Positions 5,771-23,219 of a DNA stretch of 41,249 nucleotides are shown here, in pieces. The notes under the pieces are model-generated. The model did not search any database. It was not told the origin of the DNA and was given only the letters and a program-made list of their open reading frames with translations. The DNA comes from Actinomycetota bacterium (lineage in GTDB: Bacteria; Actinomycetota; Geothermincolia; Geothermincolales; RBG-13-55-18), in contig JACVJK010000009.1 in NCBI GenBank assembly GCA_015711955.1, positions 1-41,249 of the forward strand. The letters run 5' to 3'. Positions within the stretch are counted from its first letter, which is position 1. Each line of letters starts with the position of its first letter. The translations under genes were made by a program, and so were the position numbers.

Positions 5771-7255
5771 ATGCCCCAAGAGAGAAACCACTTGGAGCTG
5801 CGCAGGATCTACCGGGCCATAGAGGAATCCGGCCTGTACATAAACCTCAACCACGACGTGCGTTTCCGCGAGCAGAGGGAGATCCCCCTCAACCTCAACG
5901 AGACCGAGTCGGTGGTGCTGGCCGAGGAGTCGTACAACTCCCCGCTGCTCTTCGCCCTGCTGACCTCGGTGATGCGCAACGGCACCATGATACTCTTCGG
6001 CTCTCCCGGATCGGGCAAGACCACATCCGCCGAGTTCGTGGGAGCCCTGGTCTACGGGAGGATCCTGGAGGAGACCTTCGGCGACGGTGCCGGGCCCTTC
6101 CGGGTGATGGAGGCCATCCACGAGGCCACCATCCACGGCCACCAGGAGCTCACCGAGGAGAAGATGCTGGGCAGGCCGCACCTGGGAAGGCTCATGCGGG
6201 ACGGGGAGGAGGTGGTGGTGCCCCGCAAGTTCGTCTTGAGCCCTTTCCGCATGGTGGACGAGGTCAACCGCCTCACCCCCGGCAGGACCAACAACCTACT
6301 GGAGCTGATGGACCGGGGTTTCACCGTCTACGGCGACACCAAGATCTACGCCGCGGAAGGGGTGACCTTCCTCACCGCCAACTTCAGAGACATAGCCTCC
6401 TCCGACCTCACCCCGCCTTTCCTGGACCGGATTGACGTGGGGGTCTTCTCCCCTACCCTGAACCCCTACTTCCTGGAGATGGCGGGGGGAGGGGAGGACA
6501 GGAAGCTGGCGGGTGACGAGGAGGCCTTGGTGGCCAGGATCAGGAAGGAGATAGGGGTGGAGTTCACCCGCGAGGACCTCGCGGAGATCCGGGCGGAGAT
6601 CGCCGCGGTGGAGATGGAGCCGGAGGCCCGCTACATCCTCTACAACTTCATCTCCGAGGTCAACGGGTGCGCCATGGCCTCCCCCGAGCTGGAGAGGAAG
6701 AGCAAGGGGTTCGCCTGGTTCGTGAGGCCGCCGGTGCTGTGTGCCCAAGCGGACGACGGAGGGCCGGGTTCGGGCCACCTTGGAGGCTGCCATTACCACA
6801 ACACGGAGAACATCTGCTACCGCACAGAGAACGAGGTGAGCGTCCGTTCGGCCCGCACCATTGAGAGATACGCGAAGGCGGTGGCCTGGTTCCGGGGAAA
6901 GCAGAGAGCGGGGGTGGAGGACCTGGAGGCGGTGGTCCCCTACGTGCTCTGGTTCAAGTTGGTCCCCACCGACCGGGCTTGGGCGGAAAGGCCGGAATTC
7001 ATGAACGACCGCATCGCGATGGTAAGGGAGATGTTCGAGGTATCCAAGAACCACTATCTCAAGAGCAGGAGGATGATCAGGACCCTGGACGCGGTGCTTG
7101 ACCTATACGAGCGGGCGATGAAGGGCCAGCCAATGGAGCCGGAGCTGGTATTGGAGGCGCTCAGTTCCCTCAGAAAATACGACTCGCCAGCCAAGTATCC
7201 CATAGCAACCATGCTGAGGCAGGTCTATCGGGAACTTGTGGGCAAAGGTGTTTGA
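5771..7255 (+). CDS. MoxR-type AAA+ ATPase with Cys/His insert
   Basis: A 494-residue AAA+ ATPase. Walker A is GSPGSGKT (77-84), Walker B lies around MVDEVNRL (161-168), and the ATIHGHQELTEEKMLGRP stretch (about 119-136) with PPFLDRIDV (215-223) is typical of the MoxR group. MoxR ATPases act as chaperones that remodel or load partner proteins, usually together with a VWA-domain protein; the VWA partner is the next gene. Between the ATPase core and the C-terminal helical lid there is a Cys/His-rich stretch (Cys300, Cys324, Cys340, His341, His343, Cys349) that could bind zinc or an iron-sulfur centre; similar inserts occur in archaeal relatives as far as I recall. The ATG at 5771 follows GAGGAAGG. 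The next gene begins 24 bases after the stop, which indicates an operon. Confidence 0.9.
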   Translation: MPQERNHLELRRIYRAIEESGLYINLNHDVRFREQREIPLNLNETESVVLAEESYNSPLLFALLTSVMRNGTMILFGSPGSGKTTSAEFVGALVYGRILEETFGDGAGPFRVMEAIHEATIHGHQELTEEKMLGRPHLGRLMRDGEEVVVPRKFVLSPFRMVDEVNRLTPGRTNNLLELMDRGFTVYGDTKIYAAEGVTFLTANFRDIASSDLTPPFLDRIDVGVFSPTLNPYFLEMAGGGEDRKLAGDEEALVARIRKEIGVEFTREDLAEIRAEIAAVEMEPEARYILYNFISEVNGCAMASPELERKSKGFAWFVRPPVLCAQADDGGPGSGHLGGCHYHNTENICYRTENEVSVRSARTIERYAKAVAWFRGKQRAGVEDLEAVVPYVLWFKLVPTDRAWAERPEFMNDRIAMVREMFEVSKNHYLKSRRMIRTLDAVLDLYERAMKGQPMEPELVLEALSSLRKYDSPAKYPIATMLRQVYRELVGKGV

Positions 7256-7278
7256 CTCCTCCAGGAGGGTGACCCGAT

Positions 7279-8877
7279 TTGTGGACCGACGGATTCGACC
7301 CACGGGAAACGCTGGAGAAGGCCATGGCCTTCTGCGGGTATCCCCGGATGATGGAGCCGGAGCTGGTGGTCGATCCGGCTCATCACCCCCACGCCGAAAA
7401 GCTGAACGGCCGATTCGGCTTTTGGGAGCCCTCCGAGAACCGGGTCTACGTCAACCTGCCGGAGGTGCACGAGCGCCTGGGGTTGGAGAACCTCGAGGCG
7501 GTCCTGGTCTACCAGATACTCCACTACGCATTGGCCCCCTTCGACTCCCGGACCGCCCTCAAGCTGACCGCCTCCGCCAAGGTGGCACTGGACGGGAGCA
7601 GGGATGACGACAGAAGGAAGGACACCTCGTTCTCCGAGGCGCTTAGCCTGCAGAGGGTTTTCTGCGACATCATCAACGTAACCTACGCCGCACTCCACGG
7701 CATGAGGGAGGAGATGGTCCGCCTTTACCGGGCCATGGACCGGGACAAGGGGTGGAGGGCTACCATGTTCTGGAAGTTCTTGCTCTGTCTCTTCGAGGAG
7801 CTCTGGGACTGCAAGGGCTCCCTTCTGGAATGGGCACCGCGAAGCCTGCGGGAGGATGCCCAGAAGATGGGAGCCGTTCTCCTGGCCCGTCCTTTCGCCG
7901 CTCCCACCTGGGAGGAGAAGATAAGGCTGCTGGCGGGCTTCTTCCGCAAGTACTATCGGGACGGCGACGAGATGGACGACGCCCGCCTCATGGACCACGG
8001 CATCGACGAACTGCGGGGCAGGTCCATGGATCAGTTGTTGCGGGAGGTCTCGGCAGAGTTGGGCCTTCAGGACTTCAAGGACATCGTGTGCGGGCTGGGG
8101 GAGGGCTCCGAGATCCAGGCCCTGGTCTGGTTCTACCGCGATCTGGCCCGGCGCTACGAGGTCCGCATCCGCCCGGTCAGGAGCGAGTCCGGCGAGGAGG
8201 TCCCCTATGCCCCCCGGGCCTGGGGGCTGGGGGATCCCCTGGAGAAGCTGGACCTAGCCTACACCCTGTACACCTCGGGCAGGGCGGTGCCCACCCTCAC
8301 CACCAAGCAGTGGGACCTCACCCGGTTGGACGTGCCCGCCAGGAGGAAGACCCCACCCGACGTGGTGATAGTGCTGGACGCCTCGGGATCCATGACCAAC
8401 CCCTCGGTGGAGGTGGCCAACGCGGTGCTGGCGGGTTTCGTGCTGGCCCGCTCGGCGGCCAACATGGGGGCCAAGGTGGGGCTGGTGGTATATTCCGACC
8501 AGCAGCGCTCTTATCTGGTGGAACCCACCTGGCATTTGCGGAAGGTGGAGGAAGGATTGGTGACCTATTACGGAGGCGGTACCGTGTTCCCAGTGGATGA
8601 GTTTCGGTACCTTTTCGGACTCGAGCCTCACCGACCCAAGCACTTCTGCCTCATATCCGACACCGAGATAGTGAACCTCCAGGAGGCCAGGGACCTCCTG
8701 GAGGAGGCCCTGTCGGTGCACCCCGAGAACTCGGGGTCGATATTCCTCATCGACCAGAGCTACAACCGCAACGCCGAGGTGCTGCGGGAGGCTGGTTACC
8801 AGGTGTTTCCGGTAACCCGGGGAGAGGACCTGGTCAGGGTGGTGGCCGGCAAAGCCCACGAGCTTTACGCCTGGTAG
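7279..8877 (+). CDS. VWA-domain protein with metallopeptidase-like N-terminal part (MoxR partner)
   Basis: A 532-residue protein. The C-terminal part is a von Willebrand factor A domain with the metal-dependent adhesion motif DASGSM (367-372) after VVIVL, expected to bind a divalent cation and mediate protein contacts. The N-terminal 300 residues resemble the putative metallopeptidase region found in DUF2201-type VWA proteins. Where a zinc-binding HExxH would be expected there is YQILHY (78-83), so protease activity is doubtful. The start is a TTG at 7279 with AGGAGGG nine bases upstream; the next in-frame ATG is at 7324. It is the second gene of the MoxR operon and presumably receives or targets the ATPase to a client. 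There is no signal peptide or membrane segment, so it is cytoplasmic. Confidence 0.87.
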   Translation: MWTDGFDPRETLEKAMAFCGYPRMMEPELVVDPAHHPHAEKLNGRFGFWEPSENRVYVNLPEVHERLGLENLEAVLVYQILHYALAPFDSRTALKLTASAKVALDGSRDDDRRKDTSFSEALSLQRVFCDIINVTYAALHGMREEMVRLYRAMDRDKGWRATMFWKFLLCLFEELWDCKGSLLEWAPRSLREDAQKMGAVLLARPFAAPTWEEKIRLLAGFFRKYYRDGDEMDDARLMDHGIDELRGRSMDQLLREVSAELGLQDFKDIVCGLGEGSEIQALVWFYRDLARRYEVRIRPVRSESGEEVPYAPRAWGLGDPLEKLDLAYTLYTSGRAVPTLTTKQWDLTRLDVPARRKTPPDVVIVLDASGSMTNPSVEVANAVLAGFVLARSAANMGAKVGLVVYSDQQRSYLVEPTWHLRKVEEGLVTYYGGGTVFPVDEFRYLFGLEPHRPKHFCLISDTEIVNLQEARDLLEEALSVHPENSGSIFLIDQSYNRNAEVLREAGYQVFPVTRGEDLVRVVAGKAHELYAW

Positions 8878-8920
8878 GGCGGCGCGAACAATGGCGGGGT
8901 TCCGGAAGGGGTGAAGCGAG

Positions 8921-9823
8921 ATGCGTTTCCCCAAACCGCATCTGGGCGAGGAGAGAGGTTCCCTGGAGGAGATCCTGGAGACGACCAAGAGGGAAGAGAA
9001 GGCCGAGCGGGAGCGGTATGAACGGTTCACGGTGAGGGAGCTGTTCCTTTCACTTCGCAGCCGCGACCGGATGAGCAAGAAAAGGGTGAGAAAAGCCCTC
9101 CCCGACCGGGACGACGAGGAGCTCTTGGGGCTCATCACCCGGCTGCTGGAGAGGGCTGCCACTGCCTACCTTTCCTTTCGCTCCCGTTGGGAGAGGGAGG
9201 TGCTGGGTTACCTCACCAGCATCGGGGCGGAGGTGAGCGCCGCACTGGGGCTGGGCCCCTTCCGGGTTCCCGACGGGTTGGACTACGTGGGGTTGGAGGC
9301 GGAGGGGAGCGGCAATCAGCGGCCGGCCATCTTGTCCCGCCACCTGGGGGCCTTCGCCGGCATGAAGGCGGTCAACCTCGACCTCACCGCCTCCACCCTG
9401 GGCGACTACGGCTTTCGCCGAGCGGTGGGTTGCAAGGTGGAGGCGGAGACGGTGGGAAAATGCTTCGGCGAGGAAGCGGAGAGGATCCGCCTGCGGGCGG
9501 AAAGGGCAGGGGATTGGCTTTTCCTCAAATCCAAGGACTGTGAGGCCGAGGTGGGAGAGGTGGGGAGGTTGGCGGGCCTTGACTCCCGGGGACTCCGCCT
9601 CGTGGTGAGAAGGGCGGGGGCCGAGTTGGGCGCCAGGGCTGAGGAAGCGGAGTTCTACGTCACGGAAAGCCTCAAAGGATTGGGACTCAGGGGAAGGGGG
9701 ACCGTGTACCTGACCCCTGACCTTTTCCAGGCGGCCTTGGAGGCCAGGACCTCCTTCCATCTGGTGGAGCTGGAGGGAACCATTGAGCCCGGAAGAGGCC
9801 ATAAGGAAGCTGGAGGGCGGTGA
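8921..9823 (+). CDS. conserved-context protein of unknown function (MoxR/VWA operon)
   Basis: A 300-residue protein that I do not recognise. The first 60 residues are highly charged and probably helical (ETTKREEKAERERYERFTVR). Residues 60-100 look like a second helical segment. The remainder is Gly/Leu/Val-rich with alternating short strands (NLDLTASTLGDYGFRRAVG, RLAGLDSRGLRLVVRR), compatible with an all-beta or beta-helix fold. There is no membrane segment, signal peptide or known catalytic motif. The ATG at 8921 has GAAGGGGTG upstream. It starts 43 bases after the VWA gene, and its last 41 bases overlap the next gene, so it is co-expressed with the MoxR/VWA pair and may be their client or adaptor. 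High GC at third positions supports real coding. Confidence 0.7.
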   Translation: MRFPKPHLGEERGSLEEILETTKREEKAERERYERFTVRELFLSLRSRDRMSKKRVRKALPDRDDEELLGLITRLLERAATAYLSFRSRWEREVLGYLTSIGAEVSAALGLGPFRVPDGLDYVGLEAEGSGNQRPAILSRHLGAFAGMKAVNLDLTASTLGDYGFRRAVGCKVEAETVGKCFGEEAERIRLRAERAGDWLFLKSKDCEAEVGEVGRLAGLDSRGLRLVVRRAGAELGARAEEAEFYVTESLKGLGLRGRGTVYLTPDLFQAALEARTSFHLVELEGTIEPGRGHKEAGGR

Positions 9824-10475
9824 GATAGGGGAGTGCCTCCTCGTTCCGGTCCGGATCGAAAGGGGAAGGACCAGTCGGGAGGTAAATTTTTCCATAATTT
9901 TGTCCTGTCCCTCCGGGGAGTCAATGGAACCTGTGGTGGATGGACTCTACCGCAGGGATGATGGATCAGGGAGGTTCTCCTGGGTGGAGTTCCGTTACCG
10001 GCCCTTGGTGCGGTTTTCCGGGAACGGGACCTTGGATCTGGTGGAAGCAGGCCTCACCGAGACCCTCTTTATCCATCTGCGGGGGTTGATCGGACCCGGC
10101 GGGGCCTTCCATGTGGTATACGGCGCCGAGCCCCATCAATTTTTCAAAGAGACCTCAGAGGGGCTGAAGAAGGGATTCCCCCCACCTCTCACCCCCCTAG
10201 GATATGAGCTCTGGAAATGCGGCTTCCGCTGGTTCAAGGACTGGTACTTCCCCGAGGGATGGCTCGAGGGCTCCATGAAACTGCAGGCCACCCTCCCCTT
10301 AAACGCTGAACTAGCCCAGGAGCGGAGCAAGGAGATGCAGGAGGAGGTCGAGAGGTTCGTGCGCCGGGTGAACGCGGGGATGGTGGTGAGGGAAAAGACA
10401 CTCGAAAGGGCGCTGTCGCGAGCGCGGGAGCTGGGCCTCTTTCCGCGGGAAAACATGGCCTTGGGAAGAAGTTAG
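9783..10475 (+). CDS. DUF1122-like protein
   Basis: A 230-residue protein starting at a TTG at 9783 with GGAGGG five bases upstream, inside the end of the preceding gene in another frame (41-base overlap, implying translational coupling). The segment LGYELWKCGFRWFKDWYFPEG followed by MKLQATLP resembles, from memory, the signature of the DUF1122 family, found mainly in archaea and some bacteria and of unknown function. The FHVVYGAEPHQFF stretch precedes it. The C-terminus is a charged helix (about 175-220). No membrane segments. As part of the MoxR/VWA/unknown operon it may act with that system. The family assignment is tentative. Confidence 0.65.
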   Translation: MSPEEAIRKLEGGEIGECLLVPVRIERGRTSREVNFSIILSCPSGESMEPVVDGLYRRDDGSGRFSWVEFRYRPLVRFSGNGTLDLVEAGLTETLFIHLRGLIGPGGAFHVVYGAEPHQFFKETSEGLKKGFPPPLTPLGYELWKCGFRWFKDWYFPEGWLEGSMKLQATLPLNAELAQERSKEMQEEVERFVRRVNAGMVVREKTLERALSRARELGLFPRENMALGRS

Positions 10476-10548
10476 AGCGAGGGCGCCTCCCGAAGGCACG
10501 TTGCCCATCGGACACGGTCCCGTCATCAGCGAGGGCTAGCGCGGGGGA

Positions 10549-11868
10549 ATGGGCCGTCGTTCGAGAGGAAGGCACCGTCGGTTCGAGGCAAAGAGGACGG
10601 GGCCTACCTGGTGGGCGAGAGGAAGGAGGGGACGGCAGGTGGAGGAATATCCGAATCTCGGTGAGGATGGGAGGAGGCCGCGCCGAACCCTCCTCTCGGC
10701 TTTTGCGATCCTCGCTCTTTTGACGCTGACCTTTTTCCTCCTCTGGGAGGCAGGTTTAATCCGGGGCCTGCTGGAATCGTTAGGGTTGAGGATTGGTGGG
10801 GGTAGGTGGGGATGGGACTGGCAAGAATTGGACCTCGGAATCTCATTGAAGTTGAGGTCGGCAGGAGTGAGAAATCTTGAGGTGAGAATGGTCCAACCGC
10901 CTCACAGATCGGGCTTCCAGGAATTGGCATTGGATTTGGATCCAGATCCCCAGGAAAGTTTCAGGGAAGGTGACCGGGTGATGGTGTTGCACCGTTTCGA
11001 TTTCCCTCCGCAGGAGGTAGCGCTGAGCTTGAAAGGCAGAGTCCTCTTGCGTCGGATGGACCTGGAGACGGCCATGAGGCAGGGTGGGTACACATCGGGG
11101 GAGGCACTGTCTTCTTTTTTGGCATCGGAAGAGCTGGTGGAGTCCGATGACCCGGAAATCCGGGCACTGGCTGCGGCCGTGGGGGGCGAAACCGATAGGG
11201 AGATGGCGGCGGAGATATGCAGGCTGGTGGGAAGGCTGCTGGATTACCGCCGAGAGACAGAGAACCGGGGAGCGTTGGCCGCACTGAGGCGGGGATGGGG
11301 TAACTGCACCGATTATTCCCACCTGATGGTGGCCCTGTGTCGAGCCAAGGGGATTCCCGCCCGCACCGCTCGAGGGCTCCTGGTGGAGAGGTCTTTTGGG
11401 GAGGGGGAATTCGGTGAGTTCCTTCACCGGTGGGTGGAGGTTCACCTGGAAGGATGTGGTTGGGTGACCTTCGACCCCACCCTTGCCGAGGAGGACCCGA
11501 CCATGGTCGAGCGTTTGCCACCCTTCCACCTCCTTTTAGGCGTGGGTGAGGGTGACCCTTGGCTCAAAGGAGGGGACATGTGGTTCGTGGAGTCGAGAGG
11601 GGGGAGCGTGGAGGCGGAGTGGGATATGACGGCACAGGTGAAGGGCGGCGGAAAGGGGGAGTTGCCCCACAGGACGAATCCAGGAAATATATGGAAGAAT
11701 CATGTGGATACGGGACTAGCACTTGAAAGCCGATCGAGTCTCAAGCGGATGCCACCTACGCTCATCGCTTGCCCTGACCCGAGAGCCGGTCGGCTGAATC
11801 GAAGGAAAGCGGATTCTGGGGACTCGATGTTCGACTTAGTGGTGCAGCACCGTGATCTTGGCGGATGA
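10549..11868 (+). CDS. membrane-anchored transglutaminase-like protein
   Basis: A 439-residue protein. A very basic N-terminus (1-46) precedes one membrane segment at about 47-67, so the rest probably lies outside the cell. The transglutaminase-like core has its triad in the usual order: Cys253 in GWGNCTDYSHL, His293 in FLHRWVEVHL, and Asp309 in WVTFDPT. Bacterial members act as peptidases, transglutaminases or cell-wall remodelling enzymes; MoxR gene clusters often contain one. It starts at the ATG at 10549, 73 bases after the DUF1122-like gene, with only a weak ribosome binding site. The last 80 residues have unlike composition (many Arg, Ser and Asn) and adjoin a segment with a partial gene duplication, so the natural stop may have been lost and the tail may be run-on sequence. 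Confidence 0.82.
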   Translation: MGRRSRGRHRRFEAKRTGPTWWARGRRGRQVEEYPNLGEDGRRPRRTLLSAFAILALLTLTFFLLWEAGLIRGLLESLGLRIGGGRWGWDWQELDLGISLKLRSAGVRNLEVRMVQPPHRSGFQELALDLDPDPQESFREGDRVMVLHRFDFPPQEVALSLKGRVLLRRMDLETAMRQGGYTSGEALSSFLASEELVESDDPEIRALAAAVGGETDREMAAEICRLVGRLLDYRRETENRGALAALRRGWGNCTDYSHLMVALCRAKGIPARTARGLLVERSFGEGEFGEFLHRWVEVHLEGCGWVTFDPTLAEEDPTMVERLPPFHLLLGVGEGDPWLKGGDMWFVESRGGSVEAEWDMTAQVKGGGKGELPHRTNPGNIWKNHVDTGLALESRSSLKRMPPTLIACPDPRAGRLNRRKADSGDSMFDLVVQHRDLGG

Positions 11869-11930: not shown

Positions 11931-12119
11931 CAGTAGCGAAAACCCAAGACCAAAGCCAGGATGTTCATGGCCAAGGTCACGGAACGGAGGCCCGCGGAGA
12001 GATTTAGCTGGTCACCTCCCTTGAATCCAATAGGGGTTTGCCGAGACGGACCTACCGATCACCGCTGGGCTCTCAGTAGCGAAAACCCAAGACCAAAGCC
12101 AGGATGTTCATGGCCAAGG
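11931..12119. repeat. 46-base direct repeat: duplicated 3' end of the membrane-protein gene
   Basis: Positions 11931-11976 and 12074-12119 are identical over 46 bases. The second copy is the 3' end of the minus-strand membrane-protein gene, encoding LAMNILALVLGFRY and the stop. The first copy lies beyond that stop; there the frame reads through into CYSSWLW instead of stopping. The 97 bases between the copies show no resemblance to the gene. The first copy is therefore a fragment left by a partial duplication or recombination. Confidence 0.8.
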
Positions 12120-12774
12120 GCACTGCGTAGATGGCCGCGGTTACCTTGATCTTTGAGGCGACGCTTTTTAGTCCGAGGACCAGGTTTGCAGCGGCGAACC
12201 AGTAGAAATATCCCAACAGGAATATGAGCCAGATACCGGCAAAACTTCGGTTCCACCACGGATACTCCCAAACCAAGTGATCGCCCAGGTTTAAAAGTAC
12301 TTCCACCAGAACGCAGAAACAGGCGAAAAATACGGCCATGAACCAACGATTGGGCATTCCCAGGATCTTCCTCTCTTTGTCCGGCAGGAGAGAATGGTAA
12401 TACACCAGTCCTAAAAGAAGGAAGGTGAAGATGATCTCTATATTCCATCCCACCATGACCCTGAACGCCGTGTCTCCCGGAGTGGTCCAGACAGCAGAGC
12501 GCTTGCTGAGATGGAAAACCCAACCATTCCAGGTCTCGTTGAAAAAGTCGCAGCCGAAAACCACCAGGGCGGTGAACAGAGGATCCCAGTTGCCGCTACT
12601 TCGGCAGGATTTGACCTCCCGGGCGTACACATAGGCCACTATGGCCAGTATCGGCACGACGTACCATTCAATGGTAGAGAAATCCCTGAGTCCCTCCAGG
12701 GCCCGACGCGAGGCTTCGGTAAGGGCAGCCGCCAAAGTGAGCACCTCCCCCTCTGATCCCTGTGGTTTAACCAC
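12073..12774 (-). CDS. multi-pass membrane protein, unknown function
   Basis: A protein of up to 233 residues with about six membrane segments: WYVVPILAIVAYVYA, PLFTALVVFGCDFF, IEIIFTFLLLGLVYYH, WFMAVFFACFCVLVEVLL, FAGIWLIFLLGYFYWFAAA and a last one ending in MNILALVLGFRY. Trp/Phe-rich polar spots between segments (FFNETWNGWVFHL) could bind a ligand or lipid. Family not recognised. The open frame begins at a GTG (12774), but a TTG at 12735 has GGGGGAG at ideal distance and gives 220 residues, so the true start is uncertain. The gene faces away from the universal stress gene to its right and is convergent with the transglutaminase. Its 3' end is duplicated downstream. Confidence 0.78.
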   Translation of the reverse strand: MVKPQGSEGEVLTLAAALTEASRRALEGLRDFSTIEWYVVPILAIVAYVYAREVKSCRSSGNWDPLFTALVVFGCDFFNETWNGWVFHLSKRSAVWTTPGDTAFRVMVGWNIEIIFTFLLLGLVYYHSLLPDKERKILGMPNRWFMAVFFACFCVLVEVLLNLGDHLVWEYPWWNRSFAGIWLIFLLGYFYWFAAANLVLGLKSVASKIKVTAAIYAVPLAMNILALVLGFRY

Positions 12775-19634: not shown

Positions 19635-22600
19635 TCAGACCCGCCTCGCCCCCGCCATCAAAAGCAAGCACCCCGCCAGAATGAGGAGGGAGGCCACCAG
19701 GGGCGGAATCCACAGAGGGGCACCGGTGGTGGGGAGCTTCCCCCTTACCAACTCGGGAGCCACCTGCGCTGGCGGGCTGGGCGGAGTCACGGGGCCGGGA
19801 CCAGGCGTGGGTGGCGGCACCACCTCTCCCCCGACCTCCACTAGGGCGTTGAAGAAGTCCAAGTCTTCGATGCGATCCCCCGGCTTCAGGAGCAGGTCGT
19901 AGCGGTCGGTGGCCGTGGCCTCCATGTTGTAGGGCATCACTTCGTATATGGAATAGTTGCCCGCCTCCAGAAGCTGGAAGGAATAACTCCCGTCATCGGC
20001 GGTCACGGTCTGCATCTCCACCCGCTCATCGGCCAGGGTGTAGCCAGTGAGCACCACGGTGATGCCTCCTACCGGTGGCTCGCCCGGGTCGTGGGCGCCG
20101 TCGCCGTCGTTGTCTTGCCACTTATATCCGGACACGGAGGCGTAAGGGGCGTTGGTGAATATCGCTGAGACCGTGGCCCCCGGTTCGACCTCAACCTCCA
20201 ACGATATGGGGCGGGTGGCGTAATAGCCAGAAGGAACGGCCTCACTGATCAGGTACTGTCCTGGCAGGAGACCCGCGAACGCGAAAGATCCGTCCTCGGC
20301 GGTCTCGGCGGTCATGACCAGTGAGGGATCGGTAATGCCTTGCAGGGTGATGGTGACGCCTCCCAAGCCCTGCTCGCCCTCATCCACGACTCCGTCGCCG
20401 TCCAGGTCCAATACCTTCAGGCCCTTGACGGTTCCGAAGGGGCAGTTGCCGAAGTCCACTACCGTTCCGATGCCGGATCTAACCTCGACCCTCACCTGGG
20501 TTGGGGTGGTGGGGGCCATGCCCGGAGTGGGACGCTCCACCACGGTGTAGACGCCCGTGAGAAGGCCCGTGAAGGAGTAGGAGCCGCCCTCGCCGGTCAC
20601 CGCAGTGGCCAGCGGTGTTCCCGATGGGGGATTACCGGCGTAAAGATCGATGGTTATACCGGCCAGGGTCACGTCCTCCTCGGGATCCCAGTAGCCGTCC
20701 ATGTCCGCGTCCAGCCACTTGCGGCCCGATATGGAACCGCTGGGGGCGTTGCCGAAGTAAAGGAACAGCTGCTCCCCGTGAGCCAGGTAGACCTCCACCG
20801 AGGTGGGGCCGGTGGGGAAGTAACCGGGAAGGGAATCCTCGTCCACCCTCACGAGGTATGTCCCTGCCTTCAAGCGGTCGAAGGAGAAGAAGCCACCCCC
20901 TGCCGTCTCCGCGGAGATGGGACCGGGCTCCACGATCACCGTGACCCCGTCGATGCCCACCTCGTCCTCGTCCATGATGCCGTCCAGGTCAGCGTCGTGG
21001 AATTTTATGCCCCTGATGGAGCCATATCTGGCGTTGAGAAAGTCCAGATCCTCCCGCGCTTGTCCTGATTCCAGGACGTGCGCCTCGTGGGTGCCGGAGG
21101 CGGGGCTCACCGGTTCCCAGGGAGATTCCAGGACCTCCCTGACCGTGTAGGTACCTGGGATTAGGTCCTCGAAGGCATAGGAACCATCCTCTTTGGTGGT
21201 GGTCTGGGCTATCTTGACCCCGTCCCTCCACAGCTCCACTGTAACCCCCGACACCGGTAGGTCTCCCTCGTCCGCGAAGCCGTTGTAGTTCCTGTCCTCC
21301 CATTTGCGGCCCCGGAGGGAGCACGGACGGCGGTTCAGGAAGTCGATCCCACTGCGCGCCTCGCCGTAGGCCAGGCTCAGCTCATGGCTTCCTCCCGCCG
21401 GGATGACCGGATACCAGTTCGAGCCGGTCGGGAGGATTTCCTCCACCCGGTAGCTGCCAGGCTTGAGGCCGTCAAAGCGGTAGGCGCCGCCGGCGTCGGT
21501 TTGGGTCTCCGCTATAAGAGCGGTGCCCCTGAAGAGGCGTATGGTGATCCCCTCCACGGGCCTGTCCGCCGGGTCGATGATCCCGTTGCCGTTGACGTCC
21601 TCGTACTTAGTGCCCGTTATGGTGCCACAGCGAGCCAGGGGCACGGAGACTTGCTGCCACCAGCAGGGCAGGGGACAGCGCAGTATCAAGCCGGGAAACC
21701 AGGTGCCAGCGGTGGCGTGATATCCCTCCGGGGGCACCACCTTAACCGCGTACTCGGTGTAGCCGGTTGGTCCGTCGCTGCGGGGCAGGTGGGCCCATCC
21801 GGCCCACCCTGCCGGATAAGGTGGCAGCACGATGCCGAATATATAGAGCATCCCGTAAACGCCCGAACCGGTGGTCTTGGCGTACGGCCCGTCGTATCCG
21901 TCTGCGGGAACCCATACGTTGTTGACCTTGCGATACAACTCGACTCGAACCCCGTCGAGAAGGGGCTCGTTCATGTCGGCCACGCCGTCGAAGTTAAGGT
22001 CCTCTCGTACTATCACCTCAACAATTCCGTTGTCGCAGTTAGCGGCGGGTTTTCTTGCGTTCAGGAAGTCGACGACAACTTCCTTGCCCTCGCTAACCAC
22101 CACCTGCCTTTCGGCGGGTTGAGTCGGTATCCAGTTCTCCCCCGGTATTTCTTTAATCGTATATGGTCCCGGCGCGAGCCCGGTAAAGGAGTAGGACCCG
22201 TCTTCTCCGGTTAAAGACGAAGCTTGCAAGGTTCCGTCCTTCCACAGCTCCACTTTTACCCCAGACACCGGGGGCTCCCCGTCTTGGCGAATACCATCCG
22301 CGTTCAAGTCCTCCCATTTGCGTCCCGCGATCTTACCAGGGACTGGCGGTATGGGTTGATTTCCGAAGAAGACGGTGACATGGCTGCCGAACTTGATCTT
22401 TATCTCGAAGGAGGTGGGGGTGGTGGGCTGATATCCGGCGGGGACCACCTCGGTCACCGTGTATGACCCGTCTGCTAACTGGGAAAAGACGGCGACCCCT
22501 TGGGAATCGGTATAGGCTTGACTCTTGTTCACCAGTTTTATGAGGACGTCTGGCATCCCGGGTTCATCGGGCTGACGGATTCCGTCTCCGTTTTGGTCCA

Positions 22601-22973
22601 GGTACTTTATCACGGTGATCTTTCCCTTTTTTGCGTGCTCCACTCCGTAGAGGGAATTGTAGGAGTAAAGCATCAAGGAGTGTATGCCGCTTCCTACCTC
22701 TCCCGGTAGTTGTCCCGTCGTTTCCTCGTTCGTTGTGTCCTGCGACGGGAAGTCGGCGACTTCGGCAGTTGTCACGGAATCGGGTTTTTCTTGCGAGGAA
22801 GTCACGGCGGTCCCCGAGGTATCGCCCCCCGAGGGGACGGTCCCGGACACCGTTTCACTTCCGGTTCCAACGGGTTGCCCCTCCCCCGCCGAGGCCGTTA
22901 TCAAGCCCCCGGATAGGGAGAAGGTCACCAGCAGGGATAGGACATAAACCGCCCACTTTTTGCCGGATTTCAA
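19635..22973 (-). CDS. LPXTG surface protein with nine SdrD B-like repeats
   Basis: About 1112 residues. A basic start and hydrophobic stretch (VYVLSLLVTFSLSGGLITASA) form a signal peptide. A Ser/Thr-rich region follows to about 115. Then nine repeats of about 105 residues each begin with patterns such as GRKWEDLNADGIRQDGEPPVSGVKVELW; each has a DxNxDGxxDxxE-type loop that in staphylococcal SdrD B domains binds calcium, and ends in a strand-rich Cna-B-like half. A Pro-rich linker leads to LPTTG, a membrane segment and a basic tail, the complete sortase signal. The protein is thus probably covalently attached to the wall as a long stalk or adhesin. No sortase gene is in the window. A TTG at 22973 has GGAGGT at ideal spacing; a GTG at 22982 is the alternative. 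The third repeat is divergent and carries a long insertion. Confidence 0.9.
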   Translation of the reverse strand: MKSGKKWAVYVLSLLVTFSLSGGLITASAGEGQPVGTGSETVSGTVPSGGDTSGTAVTSSQEKPDSVTTAEVADFPSQDTTNEETTGQLPGEVGSGIHSLMLYSYNSLYGVEHAKKGKITVIKYLDQNGDGIRQPDEPGMPDVLIKLVNKSQAYTDSQGVAVFSQLADGSYTVTEVVPAGYQPTTPTSFEIKIKFGSHVTVFFGNQPIPPVPGKIAGRKWEDLNADGIRQDGEPPVSGVKVELWKDGTLQASSLTGEDGSYSFTGLAPGPYTIKEIPGENWIPTQPAERQVVVSEGKEVVVDFLNARKPAANCDNGIVEVIVREDLNFDGVADMNEPLLDGVRVELYRKVNNVWVPADGYDGPYAKTTGSGVYGMLYIFGIVLPPYPAGWAGWAHLPRSDGPTGYTEYAVKVVPPEGYHATAGTWFPGLILRCPLPCWWQQVSVPLARCGTITGTKYEDVNGNGIIDPADRPVEGITIRLFRGTALIAETQTDAGGAYRFDGLKPGSYRVEEILPTGSNWYPVIPAGGSHELSLAYGEARSGIDFLNRRPCSLRGRKWEDRNYNGFADEGDLPVSGVTVELWRDGVKIAQTTTKEDGSYAFEDLIPGTYTVREVLESPWEPVSPASGTHEAHVLESGQAREDLDFLNARYGSIRGIKFHDADLDGIMDEDEVGIDGVTVIVEPGPISAETAGGGFFSFDRLKAGTYLVRVDEDSLPGYFPTGPTSVEVYLAHGEQLFLYFGNAPSGSISGRKWLDADMDGYWDPEEDVTLAGITIDLYAGNPPSGTPLATAVTGEGGSYSFTGLLTGVYTVVERPTPGMAPTTPTQVRVEVRSGIGTVVDFGNCPFGTVKGLKVLDLDGDGVVDEGEQGLGGVTITLQGITDPSLVMTAETAEDGSFAFAGLLPGQYLISEAVPSGYYATRPISLEVEVEPGATVSAIFTNAPYASVSGYKWQDNDGDGAHDPGEPPVGGITVVLTGYTLADERVEMQTVTADDGSYSFQLLEAGNYSIYEVMPYNMEATATDRYDLLLKPGDRIEDLDFFNALVEVGGEVVPPPTPGPGPVTPPSPPAQVAPELVRGKLPTTGAPLWIPPLVASLLILAGCLLLMAGARRV

Positions 22974-23219
22974 CTCACCCACCTCCAGTTGATAGTCTTC
23001 TTTGTCCGCCAGAAGTCTCCGCTAAACGGTTGAACTGCCGCGCGGGTAGCTTTTACGCTTTGAGTAAGCGCAAAAACTTGACATTAAAAAGGTGCTCAAA
23101 CACTCGCCTTTGTACAGAGAGGAAGAATTTGACAGCTTGGACTCTACCCCTCCGGATTGGTTTTTCTGATTTCCCCCCTTCCATGCGTCTTTGTCTCCCA
23201 CGATTCGGCTACCAGGTTA

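Follow-up and report, generated by a model that had tools for sequence, protein, structure and literature searches.

Pairs of a MoxR-type AAA+ ATPase and a VWA-domain protein are widespread, and few of them have a known client. NorQ-NorD is one such pair, which inserts iron into nitric oxide reductase. In NorQD, the ring-shaped ATPase holds a finger of the VWA protein in its pore, hydrolysis twists the target, and the MIDAS has been proposed to grip that target at an acidic site (PMC13036017, PMC9976466). Escherichia coli carries the two-gene pair RavA-ViaA, as well as YehL-YehM-YehP-YehQ, in which a MoxR and a VWA protein are accompanied by further conserved proteins. In addition, four MoxR-vWA ternary conflict systems have been described, with VMAP, iSTAND, FtsH or a beta-propeller as the third component (PMC7159879).

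Here we analysed a MoxR/VWA locus in a stretch of 41,249 nucleotides from an Actinomycetota bacterium, the whole of which we call the window. A preliminary description had read five genes of this locus as one module, namely a MoxR ATPase, a VWA partner, a 300-residue protein (hereafter P300), a DUF1122-like protein and a transglutaminase. A check of the reading frames found all five where they had been placed, on one strand. Across genomes, MoxR, VWA and P300 form a conserved unit, which is smaller than the five genes first read. The features of the locus are as follows.

5771-7255, plus strand: MoxR-type AAA+ ATPase, 494 aa, with Walker A GSPGSGKTT, Walker B FRMVDE and Arg finger region FLDRID
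6740-6817, plus strand: Cys/His cluster in MoxR, C324-...-H336-...-C340-H341-Y-H343-...-C349, putatively metal-binding
7279-8877, plus strand: VWA-domain partner, 532 aa, TTG start
7510-7524, plus strand: YQILH in the VWA N-domain, at the HEIGH position of the distant G163 homologue, apparently a degenerate zincin-like motif
8377-8394, plus strand: MIDAS DASGSM in the VWA domain, with GGGT at T435 and SD at D461, invariant
8921-9823, plus strand: P300, 300 aa, third component, orphan family
9269-9715, plus strand: predicted beta-solenoid of P300, spanning residues 117-265 in about eight coils, each exactly 18 residues long
9783-10475, plus strand: DUF1122 protein (PF06557), judged to lie outside the module

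The assignments of the first two genes held up well. The ATPase matches the MoxR-type AAA lid PF17863 (AAA_lid_2) at E 2.8e-5, with 24.2 bits against a cut-off of 22.7, and its AAA_5 match falls just below the cut-off (Pfam). Walker A and B, sensor 1 and the Arg finger are intact and kept in homologues, which places the protein in the MoxR clade of AAA+ ATPases. Its partner matches the VWA domain PF00092 at E 3.5e-5 (Pfam) and begins with a TTG codon, at a position that is GTG, TTG or ATG in homologues. With the MIDAS residues DxSxS-T-D intact and a gene adjoining that of MoxR, it has the hallmarks of a MoxR VWA co-chaperone; the protein stops after its VWA domain and carries no fused effector.

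Among the described systems, NorQ-NorD shares with the window locus a MoxR-clade AAA+ ATPase and a partner with a C-terminal VWA domain and an intact MIDAS. The structural model of the window VWA protein (pLDDT 69) matches VWA structures, among them chain 9qhg_G of the NorQD complex at E 7.6e-4 and the Mdn1 MIDAS 8ql1_C at E 1.2e-3. In contrast to NorQ-NorD, however, no nitric oxide reductase genes were seen at the window locus, which adds P300 as a third protein and whose ATPase contains a Cys/His cluster. RavA-ViaA is likewise a two-gene pair of comparable size (498/483 aa vs 494/532 aa in the window), whose AAA and VWA cores align with those of the window proteins (hhalign E 6e-4 and 5e-5). 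Yet the alignments cover these generic core segments only and do not extend into the regions specific to RavA and ViaA; the ViaA N-domain is unmatched, no P300 accompanies the pair, and RavA lacks the Cys/His cluster. The Yeh set resembles the locus in combining MoxR and VWA with further conserved proteins, and the MoxR core aligns with YehL at E 2.3e-5 (hhalign), whereas P300 is unrelated to YehM and YehQ, sizes and domains differ, and YehL has no Cys/His cluster. No sign of P300 was seen in those known MoxR/VWA systems that could be compared.

The Cys/His cluster follows the pattern C-x(15-16)-CHYH-x5-C with one further His and lies just before the sensor-2/lid helix. It is invariant in the 15 close MoxR sequences of our alignment and absent from the distant MoxR of G163, from RavA, from YehL and from a classical MoxR. 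It is a likely metal site.

The distant set in G163 (L065:5198-9563) consists of a MoxR (29% identical), a further protein of ~333 residues, and a VWA protein that is a full-length homologue (hhalign E 3.5e-16). Since this full-length homologue has HEIGH where the window family has YQxLH, the VWA N-domain, for which the model is of low confidence, may have descended from a metallopeptidase and be inactive in the window family. The G163 protein, which keeps HEIGHH, is possibly an active metallopeptidase-VWA relative. By profile comparison, the reading frame that separates MoxR from VWA in G163 is unrelated to P300, and third partners of MoxR/VWA may therefore differ between lineages.

To follow the three genes across genomes, we searched 397 Actinomycetota genomes, covering this one phylum, with profiles of MoxR, VWA and P300. 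The MoxR profile matched 18 genomes and the VWA profile 17, with 16 close in each case; the close pairs come from the window's family, in which every one of the 15 members sampled has them, and from one genome of another family in the same class (G057). P300 was found in 15 genomes, all among these 16, and the exception, G294, has a contig that ends within 175 nt past VWA. P300 directly follows VWA except in G015, where it lies ~13 kb away on the same contig. The preliminary description had made its proposal depend on homologues of P300 and the DUF1122-like protein not occurring mostly without MoxR/VWA; for P300, every genome that has it (15/15) also has MoxR and VWA, next to it with a single exception. 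The gaps among the three genes are often 1-30 nt or overlaps, the smallest being 1-7 nt, and reach up to 333 nt in some genomes. Across genomes, the reading as one operon is supported for MoxR-VWA-P300 and not for the DUF1122 and transglutaminase genes. A promoter and terminator scan gave no more than shuffled sequences did.

The same three genes are present in G057 with none of their usual neighbours. The MoxR tree groups G057 with G156, within the window's family, at support 89/89; the VWA tree lacks the resolution to place it. Because G057 has just these genes in other surroundings and its MoxR branches within the window's family, the comparison suggests that MoxR, VWA and P300 may have moved as a block. 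All three genes are under purifying selection (dN/dS 0.05-0.21 for close pairs). Among the 397 genomes the unit occurs almost exclusively in one family, so the synteny may partly reflect common descent. A single-sequence scan with P300 across all phyla, which reaches no further than close relatives, returned only a fragment from a close relative, and no matches were found for P300 and VWA in plasmids or for P300 in viral contigs. P300 also gave matches in three f17 genomes; in the one that was read (L017), the match falls in the nucleotidyltransferase part of GlmU and is due to chance.

The surroundings of the unit vary. In several relatives the space 3' of P300 is taken by genes for an M24 peptidase, a secreted protein and a universal stress protein, and by the HcyBio gene. 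A flavin oxidoreductase gene often lies upstream in relatives, and its product was considered as a client; we rejected it as an obligate partner for lack of an orthologue in the window genome (no more than 27%; assembly 79% complete). In G188, a cas cluster, type I-C-like by eye, and CRISPR-like arrays lie just downstream of P300 (G188:C34 ~75.9-91.2 kb; L060, L106), and on the far side of the cas cluster the 3' end of P300 recurs in two extra pieces, covering residues 240-281 and 254-281, as if this end had been duplicated during insertion. CRISPR-like repeats, recognised by their repetitive translations, also occur downstream of P300 in G015:C6 (L013, ~14.2-19.0 kb of the locus), where P300 stands apart from VWA.

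P300 had been called unrecognised, and rightly so: searches of Pfam and NCBIfam gave no significant match for it, nor did Pfam give one for any of its 15 relatives. Most relatives are 281 aa long, and the window copy of 300 aa carries an extra tail of ~15 residues. The AlphaFold2 model (mean pLDDT 85, pTM 0.81) has helices at residues 15-110 and strands at 126-264, and the strand region coincides with an exact, gapless 18-residue repeat at residues 117-265 (z 8.1 at lag 18, z 8.4 at lag 36). Owing to this repeat we read the strand region as a beta-solenoid, and P300 is predicted to consist of a helical N-domain followed by that solenoid. Foldseek comparison of the model with the PDB gave a best E of 1.2, with none below E 1, and comparison with viral models gave a best E of 0.29 and no fold match. 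The solenoid likewise showed no relation to the GXGXG or left-handed beta-helix families, hhalign alignments to GltB and GlmU being no better than those of shuffled sequences. P300 is a new orphan protein family, whose predicted solenoid is unusually regular.

Given the co-occurrence of the three genes, their usual adjacency, the three-gene set of G057, the purifying selection and the intact ATPase and MIDAS motifs, we consider it probable that MoxR, VWA and P300 make up a MoxR/VWA-type machine that remodels proteins at the expense of ATP, with P300 as a new dedicated third component, either adaptor or client. By analogy with NorQD, MoxR would assemble into a hexameric ring, the VWA protein would plug this ring and grip an acidic residue of the substrate through its MIDAS, and ATP hydrolysis would twist or open the gripped protein. 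More tentatively, P300 might be the protein gripped by VWA, in the role either of an adaptor, its solenoid docking the final client, or of the client, and the Cys/His cluster might hold a metal, zinc most likely, that stabilises the lid or senses state there. A more specific, metal-dependent version, in which the ATPase cluster takes part in handling metal and P300 is the dedicated receiving or docking subunit of a housekeeping three-component MoxR-vWA system, rather than a conflict system, known to date from just one lineage of uncultured Actinomycetota, is a good deal less probable. The two unknown proteins had earlier been suggested to be clients or adaptors of the ATPase; with 15/15 co-occurrence P300 stays a candidate for this, and the DUF1122 protein, encoded at another locus in relatives, does not. 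If P300 is indeed a client or adaptor, the machine would be among the few of the MoxR/VWA kind with a target encoded alongside, and so directly testable. The stable three-gene unit, intact even in other surroundings, provides a defined protein set to co-express.

Alternatively, P300 may work independently of MoxR/VWA, sharing an operon with them for regulation only and being neither bound nor remodelled by them, which we regard as unlikely. The ~13 kb between P300 and VWA in G015 would fit this reading, as would its faster evolution: outside the window's genus, identity to the window copy is 46-53% for P300, 63-68% for VWA and 75-82% for MoxR. It also gains from G210 and G331, which encode a second P300-like protein that has the N-domain and the first coils, with the solenoid mostly lost, away from MoxR/VWA. 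As these extra copies stand apart from MoxR/VWA, the N-domain can apparently act without them. By eye, their genes (L107:6447-7136 and L108:5698-6387) neighbour flavin oxidoreductase and electron-transfer flavoprotein-like genes, and what remains of a flavin amine oxidase-like gene lies beside them. Against independence, no full-length P300 was found without MoxR/VWA in the 397 genomes, and G057 retains exactly the three genes where the usual neighbours are gone.

A defence or conflict function, with P300 as the third component of a ternary system, would combine MoxR and vWA with a third conserved protein in the way of those systems (PMC7159879). We hold it to be very unlikely, as the third component differs from those described and the window VWA protein carries no effector. 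Moreover, each genome sampled from the family carries the unit as a single, near-invariant copy that evolves slowly in a conserved position, whereas the described effectors are variable. The window proteins have no Pfam match to a ternary-system component and no meaningful PADLOC match; of the ternary-system models, at least bpMoxR was in the library, and it was matched by a classical MoxR, not by the window MoxR.

Compared with the three-gene machine that we favour, a module of all five genes fares worse still. In the window genome the genes do lie on the same strand with short gaps, and P300 and DUF1122 overlap at 9783-9823. This overlap of 41 bases, noted in the preliminary description, is real, and the DUF1122 start is plausible, relatives aligning to nearly the same N-terminus; it is nevertheless private to this lineage, because family relatives have DUF1122 elsewhere and other genes after P300. 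The DUF1122 (PF06557, E 7.4e-31) and transglutaminase (Transglut_core PF01841, E 2.9e-19) assignments are themselves sound (Pfam). DUF1122 is present in one copy in the window genome and in each of the four family relatives checked, and in 4/4 of these it stands at a separate locus among rubrerythrin- and desulfoferrodoxin-like genes (by eye). Outside the family it lies beside other genes, and phylum members have it without MoxR/VWA of this kind, so that DUF1122, in contrast to P300, occurs mostly apart from MoxR/VWA. For the transglutaminase, which by eye reads as membrane-anchored through an N-terminal hydrophobic stretch, no relative has an orthologue at this locus; its nearest relative is 37% identical and located elsewhere. 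Both are chance neighbours of the three-gene unit. As a conserved module the five-gene set is refuted; only as a private, recent association could it hold, which is highly improbable.

DUF1122 relatives of known structure are 2arh and 4zsv, and our literature search for DUF1122 found no paper. Its surroundings in relatives (L033, L034, L035, L036), which by eye also include DJ-1-like genes, offer a lead to the function of this uncharacterised family.

That the locus is a classical MoxR-DUF58-VWA-transglutaminase locus after loss of DUF58 is hardly credible: MoxR, VWA and transglutaminase do stand together in the window, but its MoxR has no match to PF07726 (Pfam), and G177 has a classical MoxR (AAA_3-type, PF07726 E 3.8e-63), DUF58 and a TgpA-type transglutaminase together at another locus. 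The remark that the usual DUF58 is missing was accurate in that no DUF58 gene lies at the window locus, where VWA matches DUF58 only at E 0.13, below the Pfam cut-off, and misleading in that the locus is not of the DUF58 type. It lacks the make-up of a classical MoxR-DUF58-transglutaminase (MRP) locus and, by its sequence features, is a MoxR locus of a different kind. No TgpA-type gene was found in the window genome, which is 79% complete; other family members have TgpA-sized transglutaminase reading frames away from the MoxR/VWA/P300 locus.

Further along the window, a 67-base direct repeat (11931-11997 and 12074-12140, 88% identical) reproduces part of the 3' end of a gene at 12073-12774 on the minus strand, and is possibly a scar of the rearrangement that brought DUF1122 and the transglutaminase here. 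The window also encodes, at 19635-22982 on the minus strand, a 1115-residue protein built from repeats of the SdrD_B, SpaA and carboxypeptidase-regulatory-like types; nearby Wzy, Wzz-like and glycosyltransferase genes mark a surface-polymer region.
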